Source: Bryobacteraceae bacterium (GTDB lineage: Bacteria; Acidobacteriota; Terriglobia; Bryobacterales; Bryobacteraceae). Taken from it: a stretch of 54,842 nt of DNA. The notes below the pieces were generated by a model. That model saw only the letters and a list, made by a program, of their open reading frames with translations. It made no database searches and was not told the DNA's origin. Below are positions 2,900 through 17,766 of this stretch, in pieces (the stretch's first letter is position 1; each line of letters starts with the position of its first letter). The translations under genes were made by a program, and so were the position numbers. The stretch lies in contig JASIAM010000069.1 of NCBI GenBank assembly GCA_030041985.1, positions 1 through 54,842 of the forward strand, given 5' to 3'.

Positions 2900-4600
2900 A
2901 TGGGCCACCGACGAAGACTAAGCCTGCTTTCGCTGCTCGCCTCCGCAATACCCGCTGCCGCACAGCAGCCCGTCATATCCCCGAATGGCGTTGTAAATGC
3001 CGCAAGCTATCTGTCGCCCCCGGCAATCGGGTCCGCGCTCCAAGTACAATCGCTCGCCACGATCCAGGGCCAGAATCTCGCCCCCGGCGTGTTCACCGCG
3101 GCCCCCCCATATCCCAAGACCCTCGGAGGAACAACCGTTACCTTCGATGGTGTGCCGGCGCCGCTGTTTTACGTCTCTCCCACGCAAATAAATTTACAGG
3201 TGCCTTCTTCGCTGCCGTCGGATCTTTTCTCCACCGGCCTGACCACCGAGATTGCGCAAGTCCCCGTTGTTGTGCAGACGGCATCGGGAGCGAGTGACCC
3301 TCAAAGTGTAGGCGTGACGTTCGTCGGCCCCGGCACTTTCACCCTCGATGGCAGCGGATGCGGCCAAGGAGCCATTCTGAACGTGAAGGCGGATGGAAGC
3401 GTGTCGGTGAACTCCCCGCAAAACAGCGCCTCTCCCGGCGATGCCTTAGAGATATTCGCCACCGGCCTGGGATCCCCGAACGTATACGTGGCCGATGGCT
3501 ACCCGGCACCCTCGCAGCCCACCCCAGGGTACACCGACCCCTGGTACAACAACCGCATCTCCTACGGATCGCCCGTCACCATCGGTCGTCAAGGAGGCAC
3601 TGGCACCATCTATGACTGGTACTGGGGGTCGATCACCGCACCCGGGCTGGTCAGCGTAGACCAAGTCAATACGCCGGTTCCGGACATCGAGGGCTGCGCC
3701 GTGCCACTCCAGACCCTGGGAGGACCGCTTGCGAGCCAAGCCGTGCTGGTAAGCATCCACAACGGAGGTGGCGCCTGCGTCGATCCTCCACCCCAAAGCT
3801 TCGGTCAGATCGCCGCGCAGCGCACGGTATTTCTGAACTCCTCCCAACCCGAAACAGACGTGGTCACAGCATCCTTCGAATCTGCCCCCTGGCTCCAGAA
3901 ACCCTCTTCCTACCCGCCCCAGATATATCCGCCATACTCCTGGAGCACGCTGACGCTGACAAACCCTCCACCGCAACAGCAGCCCTGCCCAATCCCCGGC
4001 GATACCTTCCCCGACATCGGCGCGGTCGCCGTCCAGCCTCAGGGATCAGGACCGGTGCAAGCCACTACCGATTCAAGCGGCGGCCAGTTGCTCTACACGG
4101 CAACGCTGCCTTCGGGAACGCTTCAGGGCGGCTCCCTGCAGATCACCGCCGCGGGAAGCGGAAGCATCGGACCCTTCCAGACCACCCTCTCCCTTGGATC
4201 GCCAATCCAGATCACGTCTTCGTTCCCGGCGGGAACCGCAGTGAATTTGCTGGCTCCTTTCCCCATCACCTGGACCGGAGGCGACAGCACCGAGGTGGTA
4301 ATCGTAACCTTAGTGAAGAAGACCGGCGAACTTCAGGACCAGTCCGTTACCACGTCGACTCTTGCTTCGACCCAGAGCGTCGTCTGGCAGCCGGAGCTCA
4401 CGCCACCAATTGGATGCTGCGGGACCCCGAACGTGCCGGTTTCCCCCTTCTCGTTCCCCGGTCACGAACTGCAGATCATTATCGATGTTGCCCCTGCGTC
4501 TGGAGTCGGATCGTTTTCGGCGCCTGGACTGACATTAGGCGGCACTCAAACATGGGGCTATGAGTACCGCTTCACAGGGCTGACGGAGCAAGGTAATTAG
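2900..4600 (+). CDS. Exported TIGR03437-type domain protein
   Basis: This 566-residue protein has an N-terminal signal peptide (RRRLSLLSLLASAIPAAAQQ). It then carries the domain expanded in Solibacter: NGVVNAASYLSPP, LATIQGQNLAPGVF, TTVTFDGVPAPLFYVSPTQI, followed by NLQVPSSLP. A second part of the domain contains GDALEIFATGLGSPN. The last ~150 residues form another beta-rich module (ITSSFPAGTAVNLLAPFPIT) ending in GHELQIIIDVAP…YEYRFTGLTEQGN. That tail is repeated, diverged, just downstream. The function of this domain is not known; export to the cell surface is inferred from the signal peptide. It is the third gene of a run of exported proteins. Confidence 0.8.
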   Translation: MGHRRRLSLLSLLASAIPAAAQQPVISPNGVVNAASYLSPPAIGSALQVQSLATIQGQNLAPGVFTAAPPYPKTLGGTTVTFDGVPAPLFYVSPTQINLQVPSSLPSDLFSTGLTTEIAQVPVVVQTASGASDPQSVGVTFVGPGTFTLDGSGCGQGAILNVKADGSVSVNSPQNSASPGDALEIFATGLGSPNVYVADGYPAPSQPTPGYTDPWYNNRISYGSPVTIGRQGGTGTIYDWYWGSITAPGLVSVDQVNTPVPDIEGCAVPLQTLGGPLASQAVLVSIHNGGGACVDPPPQSFGQIAAQRTVFLNSSQPETDVVTASFESAPWLQKPSSYPPQIYPPYSWSTLTLTNPPPQQQPCPIPGDTFPDIGAVAVQPQGSGPVQATTDSSGGQLLYTATLPSGTLQGGSLQITAAGSGSIGPFQTTLSLGSPIQITSSFPAGTAVNLLAPFPITWTGGDSTEVVIVTLVKKTGELQDQSVTTSTLASTQSVVWQPELTPPIGCCGTPNVPVSPFSFPGHELQIIIDVAPASGVGSFSAPGLTLGGTQTWGYEYRFTGLTEQGN

Positions 4601-4852
4601 GCGCGGTTCCCGGCGCCTAGCCCGCCGGTGGGGCAGATGGCCTGGGAGTATGCCCACACCGGACCGAACGGCAATCCGGTCTATGTAACCCAGGACCCGT
4701 TCGGACTCGCCGGCCACGAACTCCAGATCATCATCGACGTTGCTCCGGTAGCGGGCCCAGGTTCGTTTTCGGCGCCCGGTCTGACGTATGGCGGGAACCA
4801 GAACTGGACCTATGAGTACCGTTTCACGGGTTTGACAGAAAAAGGTAATTAA
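4601..4852 (+). pseudogene. Diverged duplicate of the preceding gene's C-terminal tail
   Basis: Reading on in the same frame past the TAG at 4598-4600 gives 83 codons with no stop. The second half (GHELQIIIDVAP, GSFSAPGLT, YEYRFTGLTEKGN) matches the last ~45 residues of the preceding protein, and the two copies differ at many silent positions. The only start codons are GTG 4628 and ATG 4637, and no ribosome site is seen. This is best read as a tandem tail repeat that was cut off by a stop codon, or a remnant of a second paralogue, rather than an independent 74-residue gene. Confidence 0.6.
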
Positions 4853-4878
4853 CTGACAGGGGAAGTGGACGGCGCGCA

Positions 4879-5213
4879 TCATACCAACCGCACGGGACGA
4901 TTGCTGGCGCGAGCCAGCGCACCGTACCTTCGCGTAATGCCGTTCCAGCGCACCTGGAATAGATCCCCGAACGCGCCCAGGCCGCGCCAGAGACTCACTT
5001 TCGTTCCGGCCACATCGCTCCAGCGCACTGGGATTTCGACACAGTTGTAGCCCAGGTGGTGGCGATGTAGAGCACCTCTACATCGAAGCCGAAGCCTTCC
5101 AGTCGCTGCCGGGAAAAGATCTCGCGCGCTGCGTCGGCTCGAAACAGCTTGAAGCCGCACTGGGTATCTTGGTAAGGCAGGCCGGTAAGGGCCCGCATCA
5201 TCAGATTGAAAAA
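4879..5213 (-). pseudogene. Truncated, frameshifted copy of the GT2 gene at 9026-9778
   Basis: The stretch 4872-5213 is nearly identical to 9020-9362, the 3' part of the intact GT2 gene in the same orientation. It encodes [18 protein letters not shown], then [20 protein letters not shown], up to DVEVLYIA. There a single base is missing compared with the intact copy (GTGGTGGCG against GTGGTACGCG on the plus strand, near 5058). The frame shifts and the original C-terminus [20 protein letters not shown] continues in another frame to the homologous stop at 4879. The first ~140 codons, with the catalytic motifs, are absent. It lies 39 bases beyond the end of the four-module glycosyltransferase gene. 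Confidence 0.85.
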
Positions 5214-5252: not shown

Positions 5253-8200
5253 TCAGGGTTTTACAATCAACGCGTCCACATCCACGAACTCGCCCGATGA
5301 CGCGGCATTCTTCCGGCCGCTCTCCACAATCGCCACCACATGGCGTCCCGGTCCGAAGCAGCAGAACTCCTTCCGCGCCTGCCATTCGGTCTGCGGCGAG
5401 TACAAATCGAGCACCGCCCGGCGCTCACCGTCGATCGTTACCTCCGGCATCCCACGGTTGAACGCCTTCGTGAATACGTACACCAGCGACCGGCCTTCGA
5501 AAGCGAGTTCCGCTTTGGCCCCCGCAGCCGACACAAAGCTGACCGTATTGCGATATGCTCCGGCGAAGCCCGGCCCGTGGGCCCAATTCCCCACGTAGCG
5601 TATGGCCGCATCAAAATCGTCGTATTGGCCCGGCTTCACCGTGAGCAGCGGTTTGACCACGATCCGGCCCATCAGCGTTTCGTCATTCGCGTGCTCACAT
5701 ACTGGGTCCAGCCTCGCGAAATAGTAATCGCGAGACTCGCCATCGCGCACCACGCAGAATGCGAGAAGTTGACGTAAGGCCTCGGGATAGTCCAGGTAAG
5801 GTTCGCGTTTCTGACCCAGAACGTAGCGAATTTTCCAATCCCGCAGCAGCCGCACCAACTCGGGCATGCTCTGCGACGTAAAGATTTGGTGGTATAAGAC
5901 CGTCGAGTGCCAATTGTAGGGCTGCGCGTCGCCGGCCACATCGGCCATATCCTCATCCGCGACGAGCAGGAGCGGTTCACCTGGATGCGCCGCATGGAAC
6001 TGTTGCGTCAGGCTGCGAAGGGGTGCAACATCGGTGATCGCTCTTAACGCACTCAATGGAGAGAGCAGGTGCCTCAGATAGAAATCCCGGTTGTACCATC
6101 CGGCTGAGGGCAGAAACCAGATGTTGAGCAGAACCGTCACCGCGAGCGCACCGAGTGTCGCCTGATACGTCAGCCTCTGCCGGCTCTCCATCCAGCCGGC
6201 CGCCGCTGCCGCCCCTACCGCGACCAATGGCAACACGGGATACAGGTAGCGCGCGTTCGGGACTGAAATGAAAATCAGCGTGCCGCCCGCAATTCCTGCC
6301 ACCGCCGCGCTAACGGGAATCGATGGGGTCTCGGCGATCGTGCTGTCGCGGCTTTTGAGAGCCAGAAACGCGCCGCCGGCCGTCAGCGGCAACAGCAGCA
6401 GGAACTGAAAGCCGAACCCTCCATCCTGCCCTTCTAAAAAACGATGCGTCTCAAACGTCAGAGCGAAGGGCAGGCGCCAGTCAATCGGCGCCGCATAACG
6501 CATGTCGCGGAACTCGGTCCCGGCTGCGAGCAATGGCGACGGAAACTGGCGGTTGAGATACGGGAAAAATGGATTGCCAGTTTTCCAGCACGCAATCGCG
6601 TAGCCTGGAATGGCCGTCGCGGCGACCAACACCGCCGCAACCGCGGCCACCTTCGAGCGCCGCCGTGTCTCCCAAATTGCAAGTGGTAGCGCCGCGGCCA
6701 AAACCGCCGAGGCTCCGAATTTCGCCGCAATTGCTGTGCCGCTCAACACCGCGCTCGCGTAAATAAATGCGTTATCTTTCTTCTCTGTGAACCGCCAAAG
6801 CGCCGCCATCGCTCCTAGAACCAGCGTGGCTACCATGTTCTCCACGAAAAGCGAGCCGGTGACCAACTCTGCCAGCGGCGTTGAAGCCGCTGCCGCCAGG
6901 AACAGCCAGGCGGCGGGCCGCACGAGCCATCGCCGCACCACGGTGTAAAGCAGCGCTTCACTCAGCAGCAGGAAGGCAAAGTTAAGCAGCCGTGCGCCCA
7001 GTTCTCCGCCCAACAAATAGACGATCGCATAGGTCCAATCGGTCGCCAGCGGAAACACAGCCCAGATGATTCGGCCCGGCTCGATGGTATAAGCGTGGTG
7101 GGCCGCAATATTGGCCGGGATGGCCAGATGCATCGCCAGCCCATCTGTCCCGATTTCCGGCTGCAAAACCACCAGCCATTGAATCCCTAGCACGAACGCG
7201 AGCAGCGCAACCACCGCCCGCTCGCTCATAGAGCGAAGTTCCGCCCTGCGAACGGCATCCGCCCAACCTGCGACGCGCCGCTTCACCCCCTGCCGGTCCA
7301 TCGCAATCGGCAGCATCAGAATCGCCGCCCACGTACCGGGATAGTGCACGGGCAGCCGCGCCGTCACACTCATCAGGAAGATATAGCCCGCTACGCCCAC
7401 CAGAGTCGCGAAAAGTTGCATCTCGGCGTCTTCTTCCCTCCGCTGCATGATGAGGGACCCCAGCGCGCCCGCCGAGATTAGGAAGAATGCAGGAGCAAGC
7501 AGCGCTAGCGGCCCTGCCGCCAGAGCGGTCACCGACGCCGCAAATGCCACCGCCGCGCCCACGAACATCCACGGTGCCAGCACCAGCACCGAGACCGCAC
7601 CTGTTACGAACAGGCCGGTGTAGCGCAGCATCCGCAAATATCCGTCCGGATACCAGATGGTCTGCGAAAACAAGTGGCCGCTCCAAAAACCGTAACACTC
7701 GACCCCGGCCACCAGGACCACACACGCGGGGAAAATCAGCCGCCACGCTTCCCACGCACCGCCGTTCTTGCCCACACGAAATACGAACGCCCGTTGCAAT
7801 ATGAAGTTCGCGAAGAACAACAGCGTTTCGATCGCCAGCTTGGCTGGCATCGCCGCCACGCCCAATGCCGCCGTTGCCCAACGAATGGCGCCGTATGAAA
7901 CCCCGCCGTTGGCGATCACCAGCCCCATAAACTTCGGCAGCACGTCGCGATGAGGCCGCCGCGAGTGGAAAACGGGCTGCCGCAGCATGATGTACTGAAA
8001 CGTCATGGCGCAGAAACGGGCGGCGATTTGCGATTCCAGAATCCGCCCGTTGTGACGGTACATCAGATAGAAAACCAGGTTGTCCAATGCCGCCGTCGCC
8101 AAAGAAACCGATGTGAAGCGCAGCAGGACAAAATAGATCTTCATCGAATCCACAAGCGGGTTGAAGTGCGACGACACGTTGCCGCTTTCATAGATCGTTC

Positions 8201-8801
8201 GGATGGGCTCTTCCTGAATCGGTATCGCGGAATGGTGCGCGGTGATCAGCATCTCGATCTCCAACTCATATCCCGGCGCATCGATGCGCAGCACCAGCGG
8301 CGCGAAACTCGCCGGAATCCCGCGTAGGCCGGTCTGCGTGTCCGCCAGCTTGCAACCTACCAACGCATGCATTACGCCCCGTGTGATCGCATTACCCAAC
8401 CGGCTGCGCAGGGGCACCCTTCCCGTGAACGCGCGGCTGCCCAGGACCAGGCTGTCGGGATGCGCAGCTAGCGCCACCGCTACCCGCTCAATATCTTCCG
8501 GATCATGCTGCCCGTCGGCATCAGCCGTCACCACCCCAGCTAGCCCCGGAAAGCTGTCGAGCGCGAACGCGATTCCGCTCTTCAGCGCCGCGCCTTTACC
8601 CTGGTTTGCCGCATGACGCACCAGGTGCACGCGCGGCAAAGACATAGCTGCGGCGAATACTGAGTCGAACTCGGGACCGCTGCCGTCATCCACGACCACG
8701 ATGACTGAAACCGTGCGTTCCGCAAGGACCCCGACGAGTTTGACCAAGGCCGCTGCCGGTCTGTAAGCAGGAATGACAACTGCGTACTGCGCACTATTCA
8801 C
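5253..8801 (-). CDS. Four-module glycosyltransferase: GT2 + GtrA + GT-C-like + jelly roll
   Basis: The product is 1182 residues. Residues ~5-230 are a GT2 polyprenyl-phosphate sugar transferase domain (VVIPAYRPAAALV, VVVDDGSG, ADADGQHDPEDIE). Residues ~255-375 are a GtrA-like four-helix membrane domain (KIYFVLLRFTSVSLATAALD, FANFILQRAFVFR). Residues ~385-960 are a polytopic region like GT-C/ArnT-type lipid-linked sugar transferases. The last ~120 residues form a soluble jelly-roll module (DAAIRYVGNWAHGPG, GMPEVTIDGERRAVLDLYS, SSGEFVDVDALIVKP). One chain could thus make, flip and transfer a lipid-linked sugar and bind glycan outside; this is inference. The start chosen is GTG 8801, after GGTGGAGGATC; ATG 8861 would add 20 unlikely residues. 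The GT2 gene upstream on the same strand is the likely partner. Confidence 0.85.
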   Translation of the reverse strand: MNSAQYAVVIPAYRPAAALVKLVGVLAERTVSVIVVVDDGSGPEFDSVFAAAMSLPRVHLVRHAANQGKGAALKSGIAFALDSFPGLAGVVTADADGQHDPEDIERVAVALAAHPDSLVLGSRAFTGRVPLRSRLGNAITRGVMHALVGCKLADTQTGLRGIPASFAPLVLRIDAPGYELEIEMLITAHHSAIPIQEEPIRTIYESGNVSSHFNPLVDSMKIYFVLLRFTSVSLATAALDNLVFYLMYRHNGRILESQIAARFCAMTFQYIMLRQPVFHSRRPHRDVLPKFMGLVIANGGVSYGAIRWATAALGVAAMPAKLAIETLLFFANFILQRAFVFRVGKNGGAWEAWRLIFPACVVLVAGVECYGFWSGHLFSQTIWYPDGYLRMLRYTGLFVTGAVSVLVLAPWMFVGAAVAFAASVTALAAGPLALLAPAFFLISAGALGSLIMQRREEDAEMQLFATLVGVAGYIFLMSVTARLPVHYPGTWAAILMLPIAMDRQGVKRRVAGWADAVRRAELRSMSERAVVALLAFVLGIQWLVVLQPEIGTDGLAMHLAIPANIAAHHAYTIEPGRIIWAVFPLATDWTYAIVYLLGGELGARLLNFAFLLLSEALLYTVVRRWLVRPAAWLFLAAAASTPLAELVTGSLFVENMVATLVLGAMAALWRFTEKKDNAFIYASAVLSGTAIAAKFGASAVLAAALPLAIWETRRRSKVAAVAAVLVAATAIPGYAIACWKTGNPFFPYLNRQFPSPLLAAGTEFRDMRYAAPIDWRLPFALTFETHRFLEGQDGGFGFQFLLLLPLTAGGAFLALKSRDSTIAETPSIPVSAAVAGIAGGTLIFISVPNARYLYPVLPLVAVGAAAAAGWMESRQRLTYQATLGALAVTVLLNIWFLPSAGWYNRDFYLRHLLSPLSALRAITDVAPLRSLTQQFHAAHPGEPLLLVADEDMADVAGDAQPYNWHSTVLYHQIFTSQSMPELVRLLRDWKIRYVLGQKREPYLDYPEALRQLLAFCVVRDGESRDYYFARLDPVCEHANDETLMGRIVVKPLLTVKPGQYDDFDAAIRYVGNWAHGPGFAGAYRNTVSFVSAAGAKAELAFEGRSLVYVFTKAFNRGMPEVTIDGERRAVLDLYSPQTEWQARKEFCCFGPGRHVVAIVESGRKNAASSGEFVDVDALIVKP

Positions 8802-9025
8802 GATCCTCCACCTTATTAGACAAGATACCGCCATGGGGATCTTCGGCATATATCGGTACACCAGCGGGCAACAGCCGGCGCCACTGGAGGACTGGGAGAA
8901 GCGCGTTGTTCATGGAGCAAGGAGATAAGCGGTGGCGGGAGCGGTGGGATATGCGAAGCGTTGGAGCTAGAGAGTACGGGACCGTCACGCCTGCGTAGCG
9001 GTGCTAAGCTAACCGCAGAGGCGCA

Positions 9026-9778
9026 TCACACCGATCGCACGGGACGGGTGGTAGCGGCTGCGAGCGACCCGTACTTTCGCGTAAGGCCGTTCCAGCGCAC
9101 CTGGAACAAATCTCCGAACGCGCCCAGGCCGCGCCAGAGACTGACTTTCGTCCCGGCCACATCGCTCCAGCGCACCGGGATTTCGACACATTGGAAGCCC
9201 AAGTGGTACGCGATGTAGAGCACCTCTACATCGAAGCCGAAGCCTTCCAGCCGCTGCCGGGAAAAGATCTCGCGCGCCGCGTCGGCTCGAAACAGTTTGA
9301 AGCCGCACTGGGTATCGTGGTACGGCAGGCCGGTAAGGGCCCGCATCATCAGATTGAAGAAGCGGCCGCTGAAATCGCGGAAGGCGGGCTGGCGTACAGC
9401 AATCAGAGAGCGATCGAGCGCGCGCGAGCCGATGGCCACGGCCGCTTCCTCTCGTTCGGCCGTGCTCCAGAGTTTATCGAGTTCTTCGATGGGAGCGGAA
9501 AGATCGGCGTCGGTGAGCAGCGCCCAATCGCCTTTGGCGCTCAGCATGCCATGGCGCACAGAGTAGCCTTTCCCGCGGTTGCGGCCGTTGGCGAGCACGC
9601 GCGCGCCGGCAGCTTCGGCAATCTGCGGGGTGGCATCGCGAGAGCCGTCATCCACCACAACGATCTCGCTCGCTTCCCAGATTCCGCTGGACAGATATTT
9701 CGCAATCCGGCTAAGAGTGGCTGGCAGCCGTTTCTCTTCGTTGTAGGCCGGGATGATAATGGATACAGACCGCCGCAA
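9026..9778 (-). CDS. GT2 glycosyltransferase, dolichyl-phosphate glucosyl/mannosyltransferase-like
   Basis: This 250-residue protein has the GT2 fold motifs [13 protein letters not shown] (~8-20), [12 protein letters not shown] (~40-51) and [13 protein letters not shown] (~88-100, the DxD-type metal site). It also has the family motifs GSRAL and [14 protein letters not shown] of Alg5/DPM-type enzymes, which transfer a sugar from a nucleotide donor to a polyprenyl phosphate on the cytoplasmic face. No C-terminal membrane helices are present. It reads towards the large GT fusion gene and probably precedes it in one transcript. Its 3' part is duplicated as a decayed copy at 4879-5213. The substrate cannot be told from sequence. 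Confidence 0.85.
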
Positions 9779-15105: not shown

Positions 15106-17766
15106 ATGAGCCAGCCGCAAACTGCGCGCGATGCCAGTCACGTATTGACATTAGAAGAGATCGCCACACTCGCCAAGGACAACAGCAAGCCTGCCGAAAC
15201 CTTAATGAATGTGGTGGCGCTGATCGCTAAACGCTTTCAGACCGACGTCTGTTCGGCGTATTTGCTGGAGCCCGATCGAGCCAACCTGGTGCTGGCGGCG
15301 ACTTTGGGGCTGCGGCCGAAATGTATCGGCACGCTGCGTATGGCGCTGACGGAAGGGCTGGCGGGTCTGGTGGCCGAACAGGTGCGGCCGGTGGCCGTAG
15401 AGCGCGCACAGACACACCCTCGCTTCAAATACTTCAGCGAAGCGGGGGAGGAAGCGTATCAATCGTTTCTGGGAGTGCCGCTGATCGATCGCGGCGTTTT
15501 GCAGGGCGTTCTGGTGGTGCAGACGAGGGAGGCGCGGGTCTTTCGCGAAGATGACGTGCGCATGCTGGTGGACGCTGCAAACGAGGTAGCGCCGGTGGTA
15601 AGCGAAGCTCGCACACTGGACCGGTTTATCGCGCCCGCGCAGGAGCGCCTGTGGTCTCTGGCGCGCAATCTGTGGTGGAGCTGGGACCCGGATACGACTA
15701 GTCTGTTTCGCGATCTCGATCCGGTGCGGTGGCGCCAATTCAACCACAACCCGATTTCGCTGTTGAGTGAGCTTCCGCTGGCGGTGCTGGAGCGGCGCGC
15801 GGGGGAATTGGTGCTTCATGGCCGCATCAACTATGCGTATCGGCGCTTACAGGAATACCTGCAGGCCGATCGCACCTGGGGCGCAACTCATGCGGGTTTT
15901 CTGCGGCCGCGTCCCGTGGCTTATTTTTCGGCGGAATTTGGCATACACGAATCAGTCCCTGTTTATTCCGGGGGGCTGGGCGTGCTGGCGGGCGATCACA
16001 TCAAAAGCGCTTCGGACCTGGATATTCCGCTGGTGGGGATCGGCTTGTTCTATGGGCAAGGCTATTTCCGGCAGCATCTGGACCGCAACGGCTGGCAACA
16101 GGAAGCCTATCTGCCGACGGACATCAATCAACTGCCCATGGAACCGGCGATCGGGACGAAAGGGGAGCCGGTTACGGTCCAGATCGAAACCCGCAGCGGC
16201 GCGATCAGGGCCAGGGTATGGCGCATGAAAGTGGGACGCCGCGACCTGCTGCTGCTCGACTCCAATGTGGAAGGCAATGCGCCGGAAGACCGGGAACTGA
16301 CGTCGCGCTTGTATGGGGGCGATGGACGCGTGCGTATCCGCCAGGAGCTGCTGCTGGGCGTGGGCGGATTCCGCGCATTGAAGGCGATGGGGATCACGCC
16401 CGGCGTGCTGCATTTGAACGAGGGGCACAGCGGATTTGCCTTGCTCGAAGCGATCCACAACCGGATGACGGAAGAAGGGATCAGCTTCGAGCAGGCTTTG
16501 CCGCGAGTGGCGCGGGAGGTCGTGTTTACCACGCACACGCCGGTGCCCGCGGGACACGACCGCTTCCACGCAGGCCTGATGGAGGAGCACCTGGGACCGT
16601 TGCGCGAGCAATTGCATCTCTCGCATGACGCGCTGATGTCACTAGGACGGGAGAACCCGGGCAACAGCCAGGAGGAGTTCTGCATGACCGTACTGGGGCT
16701 GCGCGTTTCGCGCCGCGCTAACGCCGTTTCCGCGCTGCATGGCGAAGTATCGCGGGCCATGTGGACGGGATTGTATCCGGGCCGCCCGGAAGACGCGATT
16801 CCCATCGGCCACATCACCAACGGCGTGCACGCGCCTACGTGGCTCGCGCCGCAGATGTTCCGCCTGTACGGCCGCCACCTGGGACCGGGATGGCACGAGC
16901 GCGCCGGCGATGCGCGCACCTGGGAGGGCATCGAGAACGTAGAAGACGGCGAACTGTGGGAGACCCATCTCAGTTTGAAATCGCGGCTGCTGGAATTCGT
17001 GCGCCGCCGGGCGGCGGAACAGGCCACGCGGCGCGGAGAACCGCCAGAGGTGGCGCAGAAGCTCAGCCGCGCGCTGAGTCCGGATGCCCTGACCATCGGA
17101 TTTGCGCGGCGGTTTGCTACCTATAAACGGGCGGACCTGATTTTGTTCGATGTGGAAAAACTGGCGCAGATGGTGAACGATCCCAAACGGCCCGTGCAAT
17201 TCGTTTTTGCCGGCAAGGCGCACCCGCGCGACGAGCCGGGAAAGCGCGTGTTGCAGCAGATTGCCGGACTGGCGCGCGACCGCCAGTTTGCCGACAAGTT
17301 TGTTTTCGTGGAAGATTACGACATCAACGTCGGGCGCTTTTTTGTGCAGGGTGTGGACGTGTGGCTCAATAATCCGCGGCGGCCTCTCGAAGCCTCCGGC
17401 ACCAGCGGTCAGAAGGTCGTGCTGAATGGGGGGCTGAATCTGTCTGTCCTCGACGGCTGGTGGGCCGAAGCTTACGACGGGCTGAACGGTTTCGCCATCG
17501 GAAGCGGCCGGACCCACTCCAACATAGATCTGCATGACCGGCGCGACGGCGACGACTTGTACCGGGTGCTGCGGGAAGAAGTGATTCCGTTATATTACCA
17601 GCGGGATCGCGATGGTCTGCCGCGCGGATGGATCAAGCGCATGAAGCGGACCATACGGACGCTGGGCTGGCGGTTTAATGCCGACCGCATGGTGATGGAT
17701 TACACGCTGAAGTGCTACATTCCGGCTGCGGGTGGGACGTCGAGCGACATGTCGCGAACGAGCTGA
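15106..17766 (+). CDS. glgP: GAF-domain fused alpha-glucan (glycogen) phosphorylase
   Basis: The product has 886 residues. Residues ~15-175 form a GAF sensor domain (ETLMNVVALIAKRFQTDVCS, then VPLIDRGVLQGVLVVQTREA). Residues ~185-300 match the N-terminal domain typical of this phosphorylase subfamily (WSLARNLWWSWDPDTTSLFRDLD). The catalytic GT35 part contains AYFSAEFGIHESVPVYSGGL, FTTHTPVPAGHDRF and the pyridoxal-phosphate site EASGTSGQKVVLNGGLNL (Lys near 769). It should release glucose 1-phosphate from glycogen or maltodextrin. The GAF domain suggests allosteric control by a small ligand (inference). ATG 15106 is preceded by GAGGGAG. It converges with guaD, with one base between the stops. 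Confidence 0.9.
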   Translation: MSQPQTARDASHVLTLEEIATLAKDNSKPAETLMNVVALIAKRFQTDVCSAYLLEPDRANLVLAATLGLRPKCIGTLRMALTEGLAGLVAEQVRPVAVERAQTHPRFKYFSEAGEEAYQSFLGVPLIDRGVLQGVLVVQTREARVFREDDVRMLVDAANEVAPVVSEARTLDRFIAPAQERLWSLARNLWWSWDPDTTSLFRDLDPVRWRQFNHNPISLLSELPLAVLERRAGELVLHGRINYAYRRLQEYLQADRTWGATHAGFLRPRPVAYFSAEFGIHESVPVYSGGLGVLAGDHIKSASDLDIPLVGIGLFYGQGYFRQHLDRNGWQQEAYLPTDINQLPMEPAIGTKGEPVTVQIETRSGAIRARVWRMKVGRRDLLLLDSNVEGNAPEDRELTSRLYGGDGRVRIRQELLLGVGGFRALKAMGITPGVLHLNEGHSGFALLEAIHNRMTEEGISFEQALPRVAREVVFTTHTPVPAGHDRFHAGLMEEHLGPLREQLHLSHDALMSLGRENPGNSQEEFCMTVLGLRVSRRANAVSALHGEVSRAMWTGLYPGRPEDAIPIGHITNGVHAPTWLAPQMFRLYGRHLGPGWHERAGDARTWEGIENVEDGELWETHLSLKSRLLEFVRRRAAEQATRRGEPPEVAQKLSRALSPDALTIGFARRFATYKRADLILFDVEKLAQMVNDPKRPVQFVFAGKAHPRDEPGKRVLQQIAGLARDRQFADKFVFVEDYDINVGRFFVQGVDVWLNNPRRPLEASGTSGQKVVLNGGLNLSVLDGWWAEAYDGLNGFAIGSGRTHSNIDLHDRRDGDDLYRVLREEVIPLYYQRDRDGLPRGWIKRMKRTIRTLGWRFNADRMVMDYTLKCYIPAAGGTSSDMSRTS

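Follow-up and report, generated by a model that had tools for sequence, protein, structure and literature searches.

A predicted single-chain form of the three-component glycosylation system, with GT2, GtrA, GT-C and beta-sandwich modules, in a Bryobacteraceae bacterium

In a 54,842-nucleotide stretch of DNA from a Bryobacteraceae bacterium (contig JASIAM010000069.1 of assembly GCA_030041985.1; hereafter the window, meaning the whole stretch), we identified a fusion gene on the reverse strand (5253..8801(-)), whose product combines, from the N- to the C-terminus, a GT2 glycosyltransferase domain, a membrane domain of the GtrA type, roughly six additional helices, a core of the GT-C class and a beta-sandwich. 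We propose that the encoded protein represents a single-chain form of the three-component extracytoplasmic glycosylation system, with the sandwich most likely serving as an acceptor-binding tip, and assign this reading a probability of roughly 0.72. In this model, the GT2 domain would transfer a sugar in the cytoplasm from a nucleotide-sugar to polyprenyl phosphate (undecaprenyl phosphate being expected), the GtrA domain would help the lipid-linked sugar to reach the outer leaflet, and the GT-C core, with its acidic loop in the periplasm, would transfer the sugar to an acceptor, which may be an envelope glycan or a protein and which the carbohydrate-binding-like sandwich would hold near the membrane.

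Domain architecture and predicted structure

The open frame spans 5253..8861(-), begins with GTG and comprises 1202 amino acids with zero internal stops. The GTG at 8801 (codon 21, leaving 1182 residues) is the likelier start, because GGTGGAGG sits just upstream and a relative, L070, carries an in-frame ATG (MNSA...) at the corresponding place. Residue numbers refer to the 1202-codon frame; numbers in the structural model are 20 lower. Searches against Pfam-A identified Glycos_transf_2 at residues 28-155 (E 2.9e-14, above the cut-off) in the GT2 domain (8121..8786(-)), which is of the polyprenyl-phosphate glycosyltransferase (DPMS) type, and GtrA_DPMS_TM (PF04138) at residues 248-361 (E 4e-12, 46.8 bits with a cut-off of 26.1) in the four-helix GtrA/DPMS-type domain (7779..8120(-)). 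The GT-C core with its soluble part (5700..7238(-)) is matched by PMT_2 (PF13231, GT-C), which was detected in 11 of 14 GT-C relatives at E <= 0.1 (best 2.2e-9) and exceeded its cut-off in L070 (32.3 bits) and L109 (30.2 bits).

The AlphaFold2 model (1182 residues, 50-row alignment) reached a mean predicted local distance difference test (pLDDT) of 91.1 and a predicted template modelling score (pTM) of 0.77. Foldseek placed the DPMS of P. furiosus first (E 1.0e-8) and ArnT at rank 11 (4.5e-7), and with VIA-align 2 model residues 2-343 aligned to this DPMS (5mlz; Z 21.6, root-mean-square deviation (rmsd) 8.3, 322 residues) and residues 522-1034 to ArnT (5ezm; Z 19.9, rmsd 4.6, 430 residues). 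Ahead of the ArnT alignment, approximately six helices at model residues 348-518 form an extra membrane block between the GtrA domain and the GT-C core (7248..7760(-)), which is also visible from hydropathy and charge. At the sequence level, searches of the Protein Data Bank returned no match at 0.01 for the GT2-GtrA part, 3nqh alone (at 0.54) for the GT-C-sandwich profile, and a single unrelated chain at 0.09 for the sandwich profile.

The C-terminal beta-sandwich (5256..5645(-)), CBM35/CE2-like by profile, CE2_N and fold matches, was modelled alone with a pLDDT of 96.9. It aligned to a glycosyl hydrolase (3nqh; Z 16.5, rmsd 2.0, 116 residues), to 7ehg (MiXBM, Z 14.5), 6hfz (13.9), a CE2 esterase (2waa, 13.7) and a CBM35 domain (2w1w, 13.3), with rmsd values of 2.0-2.8 across 112-123 residues for these five structures. 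A sequence relative of the sandwich was found within a protein annotated as beta-galactosidase. CE2_N (PF17996) matched residues 1110-1159 of the window protein at E 0.035 with 14.6 bits, far under the cut-off of 27.9 (14.6 to 19.1 bits across the scans), and was detected in 12 of 15 sandwich domains at E <= 1 (best 7.2e-7). The sandwich might instead bind no sugar and act as a structural lid or oligomer contact of the GT-C. This fits the sub-threshold Pfam scores, the two fused relatives without an in-frame sandwich (L086, L091), and ORF12/GT136 of Citrobacter youngae, whose carbohydrate-binding module (CBM) is described, in the excerpts of PMC11127046, as binding the unmodified glycan and as not required for transfer in the conditions tested. 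However, CBM35, CBM6 and CE2 domains are among the best fold matches and the sequence relative lies in an annotated beta-galactosidase, so that we regard a sugar-independent lid as unlikely.

A previous sequence-only reading had postulated GT2, GtrA, GT-C-like and jelly-roll modules in this order within one polypeptide. Pfam, the model with its DPMS-like N-terminal part and ArnT-like core, and the fold alignments bear out this order; the GT-C nature of the middle region is further supported by the PMT_2 matches among relatives, and the CBM35/CE2-type folds together with CE2_N argue for the postulated carbohydrate-binding-like C-terminus.

Conserved motifs and topology

The GT2 motif DADGQH (residues 114-119; 8505..8522(-)), of the metal-binding DxDxQ type, is invariant across the family alignments. 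Its counterpart in P. furiosus DPMS is DADLQH, in which, according to the excerpts of PMC5526996, metal and phosphates are bound by Asp91 and Gln93. For the GtrA domain, Listeria GtcA offers a comparison, since R95 and N132 are reported there as essential and K121 as important for one substrate (excerpts of PMC7389260). Aligned by spacing alone, the places of GtcA F91, K121 and N132 are occupied by F/Y, K and N in the family, the counterparts of K121 and N132 being invariant among 10 aligned sequences. In the GT-C core, a motif PExxxDGLxxH follows the first helix, with invariant alignment columns P193, E194 and H203 and a nearly invariant D198. Because of this conservation, D573 within the corresponding PEIGTDGLAMH of the window protein (7128..7160(-)) is a candidate catalytic acid. 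The lengths of the helices and the charges of the loops are broadly consistent with four GtrA helices and approximately six extra helices followed by the GT-C core, charged loops after the helix blocks lying on the expected cytoplasmic side. In this topology the GT2 domain would be cytoplasmic and the GT-C loop and the sandwich periplasmic.

Relatives and origin of the fusion

With a 14-row GT-C-sandwich alignment as query we obtained 79 loci in named genomes (best 80 of 173 confirmed stretches), while an initial scan of genome contigs with the single window protein gave no matches. Loci were sorted into classes by home-made profiles, and the GT-C tree was built from 77 rows including the window (L093, L125 and L126 were left out as too short). 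These rows comprise 12 full fusions (window included), two fusions whose frame lacks the sandwich (L086, L091), four fusions in which the GT2 is degenerate and GtrA absent, eight loci with a GT2-GtrA gene directly upstream of a GT-C-sandwich gene, GT-C alone with (26) or without sandwich (14), and ten loci cut by a contig end; L095, labelled as adjacent genes, is in fact a fusion interrupted by a frame break.

Among the 237 genomes of the window's family that were searched, 69 of which encode the GT-C, GT2-GtrA and GT-C share one frame in 14, the window's included, and G057 of another family shows the same joining up to the contig end that cuts it. This recurrence bears directly on whether the fusion is an assembly artefact or arose when two neighbouring genes lost the stop codon separating them. 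In favour of such an artefact one could cite that the window stems from a draft of 355 contigs and that the parts are adjacent genes in some relatives. As the frame recurs in other genomes and the fused modules group together in the tree, we rejected the artefact, whose probability we consider negligible; the single chain is a genuine inherited fusion and was not joined by assembly.

On the GT-C tree, the 14 fused rows, the four degenerate ones and L095 fall within one 28-row clade (support 100/100), and the eight adjacent-gene rows lie outside it. A 15-row outgroup (Pseudomonadota, Planctomycetota, Nitrospinota and Myxococcota) showed no sandwich by our own profile. The GT2-GtrA tree, from which stretches of fewer than 290 residues (L087 and L095 among them) were left out and whose 16 unfused rows were those at hand, placed all 13 fused modules on one side of a branch and the unfused ones on the other (100/100). 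Within the 28-row clade the label 'fused' is scattered, with 10 changes on the GT-C tree of which at least six are forced, and a single origin therefore requires several losses, or module exchange. We read these trees as one fusion of two neighbouring genes with several later losses; module exchange may be the alternative history.

Several relatives showed further peculiarities. All three scanned unfused GT2-GtrA proteins with long C-termini (L094:4307-5965, L127:3800-5713, L073:9668-11452) carry a C-terminal methyltransferase domain, and those of L094 and L127 are encoded directly upstream of a GT-C-sandwich gene. L195:3-3803 is a 1266-codon frame running to the contig end, in which the GT-C (744-1208) is preceded by a long N-terminal stretch that matches no Pfam family. 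The record L106 (CALQCC020000041.1) bears the title Bordetella parapertussis, yet it clusters with Bryobacterales rows in the GT-C tree and is apparently a mislabelled metagenome bin.

Co-occurrence and decay of the donor modules

Presence of the GT-C was called at E <= 1e-60 and of GT2-GtrA at E <= 1e-50 in the 237 family genomes, many of which are drafts. GT2-GtrA was present in 84 genomes, namely in 54 of the 69 with GT-C versus 30 of the 168 without (Fisher p 1.8e-18, not corrected for kinship). Excluding the 14 fused and four degenerate genomes, the ratio was 36 of 51 versus 30 of 168 (p 5e-12, likewise uncorrected).

In four relatives (L070, L071, L073, L076) the fused N-terminus lacks DADGQH and SHFNP, retains DTQTGLRG only in reduced or altered form, and has no GtrA; in L084, DADGQH is kept and the GT2 ends early ahead of a frame change. 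The genomes of the four degenerate fusions (G554, G005, G565, G034) each encode one intact GT2-GtrA elsewhere (4/4), whereas a second copy at E <= 1e-50 was found in only two of the 14 genomes with intact fusions (the window's, G000, and G648; none in the other 12), a contrast with Fisher p 0.005 that is not corrected for kinship and includes two genomes of the same genus (G554 and G005). For the close pair L070/L071, the ratio of non-synonymous to synonymous substitution rates (dN/dS) by NG86 was 0.40 for the remnant and 0.35 for the GT-C, with three pairs of intact GT2 at 0.12-0.19; the YN00 values were 0.17, 0.25 and 0.07-0.13, respectively. Constraint on the remnant is therefore weaker than on a working GT2, yet not gone. 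The remnant in these four relatives is a possible pseudoenzyme domain.

Donor decay together with an intact GT2-GtrA elsewhere speaks for a functional connection of GT2-GtrA with this GT-C. Since the four relatives keep GT-C and sandwich without GT2 motifs and GtrA, the final transfer step can probably be fed in trans. This touches on the 'self-contained glycosylation machine' postulated from sequence alone: the set of parts in the window protein could do the whole job, but the four relatives speak against strict self-containment. By analogy with these relatives, the window gene itself could be a relict under decay, with the GT-C as its sole working part; this would fit the second GT2-GtrA elsewhere in the window genome and an incomplete third one located at the end of a contig. 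However, the GT2 motifs and the GtrA domain of the window protein are intact, which makes a relict quite improbable.

A further alternative concerns the GtrA domain, which might be a mere anchor or lipid-positioning part of a DPMS-type synthase, so that the lipid-linked sugar would be pooled and carried across by other proteins and the fusion with the GT-C would mainly fix dosage. By fold, the N-terminal part matches the archaeal DPMS best, the place that corresponds by spacing to GtcA R95 has a different residue, and the four relatives that lost their donor modules have the intact copy elsewhere. Nevertheless, PF04138 scored well above its cut-off, the K121 and N132 counterparts are invariant, GtrA was lost along with the GT2 motifs in the decayed fusions, and the copy elsewhere is again GT2-GtrA. 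We therefore consider the anchor possible, although the less probable role.

Comparison with known systems

The excerpts of PMC8035078 and PMC11127046 describe the three-component system (GtrA/GtrB/Gtr; CsbB/GtcA/YfhO) as separate proteins with the same functions as in the window chain, i.e., a GT2 lipid-sugar synthase, GtrA and a GT-C transferase; the window protein differs in being one chain with an added helix block and a sandwich. We suggest that it works like this system, one chain being the variant, and do not claim plain membership. P. furiosus DPMS likewise holds GT2 and membrane domain in one chain, with a DADxQH motif, but has neither GT-C nor sandwich. ArnT shares the GT-C core without donor modules, and the window protein adds the membrane block ahead of this core. 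ORF12/GT136, as far as the excerpts describe it, is a GT-C with a C-terminal CBM within a three-component system and thus resembles the GT-C-sandwich part, whereas its donor synthase and transporter are separate proteins and its CBM is described as immunoglobulin-like.

The earlier notion that the parts occur separately elsewhere did not hold, as GT2-GtrA in a single chain is common in the window's family, ORF12/GT136 joins GT-C and CBM, and other GT2-GtrA-GT-C chains exist. The search for the same domain order elsewhere found it, without a sandwich match, in G078 from another acidobacterial family and on Rhizobium plasmids, and the triple fusion as such is consequently not unique. A PF04138 search of 119 sampled Acidobacteriota returned 51 matches from 36 genomes; only the window frame (1218 codons in that scan) exceeded 900 codons, and the next longest was that of G078 with 898. 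The G078 chain is GT2-GtrA-PMT_2 (PMT_2 142.7 bits) with no sandwich by Pfam or our own profile. In a tblastn search of plasmids with this chain, 251 records matched, 22 of them covered to at least 80%; among the 15 plasmid matches listed, H1-H7 are in one piece and H8-H15 in two or three, H14 falling under two separate genes, and the Pfam order GT2-GtrA-PMT_2 in one frame was confirmed for the Rhizobium plasmid matches H1 and H6.

These proteins (e.g., ATN37847.1, 881 amino acids, hypothetical protein) share the order in one chain, but score 143-163 bits with PMT_2 compared to 25 in the window protein, lack a Pfam match to a sandwich such as the one predicted in the window protein, and have approximately 56 residues between GtrA and the PMT_2 match versus approximately 240, which therefore leaves no room for the six-helix block. 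We infer that they arose separately from the window fusion. L200:2230-4917, like H1 and H6, encodes this other triple fusion; H6 is annotated as hypothetical protein only. GtrA-GT-C chains without GT2 may also exist (L201, with PMT_2 below the cut-off; L199, with a weak GtrA profile match). A phage-borne gtr cassette was rejected as a candidate, since a tblastn search of 50,697 phage records returned a single one, which matched GT2-GtrA in part (query 49-340). Our literature search, which covered open-licence papers and is weak evidence of absence, found no paper whose title or first abstract lines describe the four-part chain.

Proposed function and implications

Besides the sub-threshold sandwich score and the scattered 'fused' label, a number of observations weigh against a single-chain glycosylation system. 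PMT_2 matched residues 604-751 of the window protein at E 2.5e-5 with 25.0 bits (25.8 bits in a second scoring), in both cases under the cut-off of 26.1. At a pTM of 0.77 the placement of domains in the model is loose. The place of GtcA R95, judged by spacing alone, is V or L in the family, DPMS uses the same kind of domain for a synthase and flipping is therefore not implied, and the RHNGR loop, expected outside, is also positively charged. Fifteen of the 69 genomes with GT-C contain no GT2-GtrA at the threshold used, and the four decayed fusions, whose frame is still open, keep GT-C and sandwich despite the loss of their donor modules. In 64 acidobacterial loci, clustering of the neighbouring genes in flanks of up to 6 kb returned no family pointing to the acceptor and no glycan-biosynthesis neighbour besides GT2-GtrA; apart from the GT2/GT-C cluster, five families occurred in at least five loci, of which two are ABC export-like and one aminotransferase-like, as judged by eye.

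On the favoured reading of a single-chain three-component system, a more specific and rather doubtful extension is a vectorial machine, in which the lipid-linked sugar would be passed via the protein's own GtrA and six-helix block to its own GT-C, bypassing the membrane pool, with the sandwich feeding the acceptor. The lineage would later have returned repeatedly to supply in trans, the dead GT2 remnant being a fossil or a docking part for a separate GT2-GtrA. The window chain bears on two general questions, namely whether GtrA proteins carry lipid-linked sugars across the membrane and how this step is coupled to donor synthesis and to transfer. The parts for all three functions are present in one chain and hence in a constant ratio, and the series of forms that occurs in nature (adjacent genes, intact fusion, decayed fusion) allows tests of cis versus trans supply that separate proteins do not. 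Moreover, the finding hints at what many acidobacterial GT-C genes of this family may do.

Genomic setting

The fusion gene adjoins a GT2 gene without GtrA (9026..9778(-)), which we take to be ALG5/DPM-like and which, by Pfam and synteny, is a conserved neighbour of lysS and not part of the machine. The block of blaI, M56, macB, lysS and this GT2 is kept without the fusion gene in G001, G002, G003, G005 and G024, and its macB-lysS-GT2 part on a short contig of G034. Both copies of the 3' end of the GT2 gene flank the fusion as a direct repeat (90.3% over 341 columns), one lying inside the GT2 gene (9021..9361) and the duplicated one at 4874..5213. Among five genomes of the genus, the window genome alone contains the GT-C, and the fusion probably entered the locus as a separate cassette with duplication.

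Two minor observations concern other parts of the window. A second direct repeat of 145 bp and 75% identity (4455-4599 and 4707-4851) involves the tail of the gene at 2900-4600, and the region 15106-17763 encodes a GAF domain fused to DUF3417 and a carbohydrate phosphorylase.

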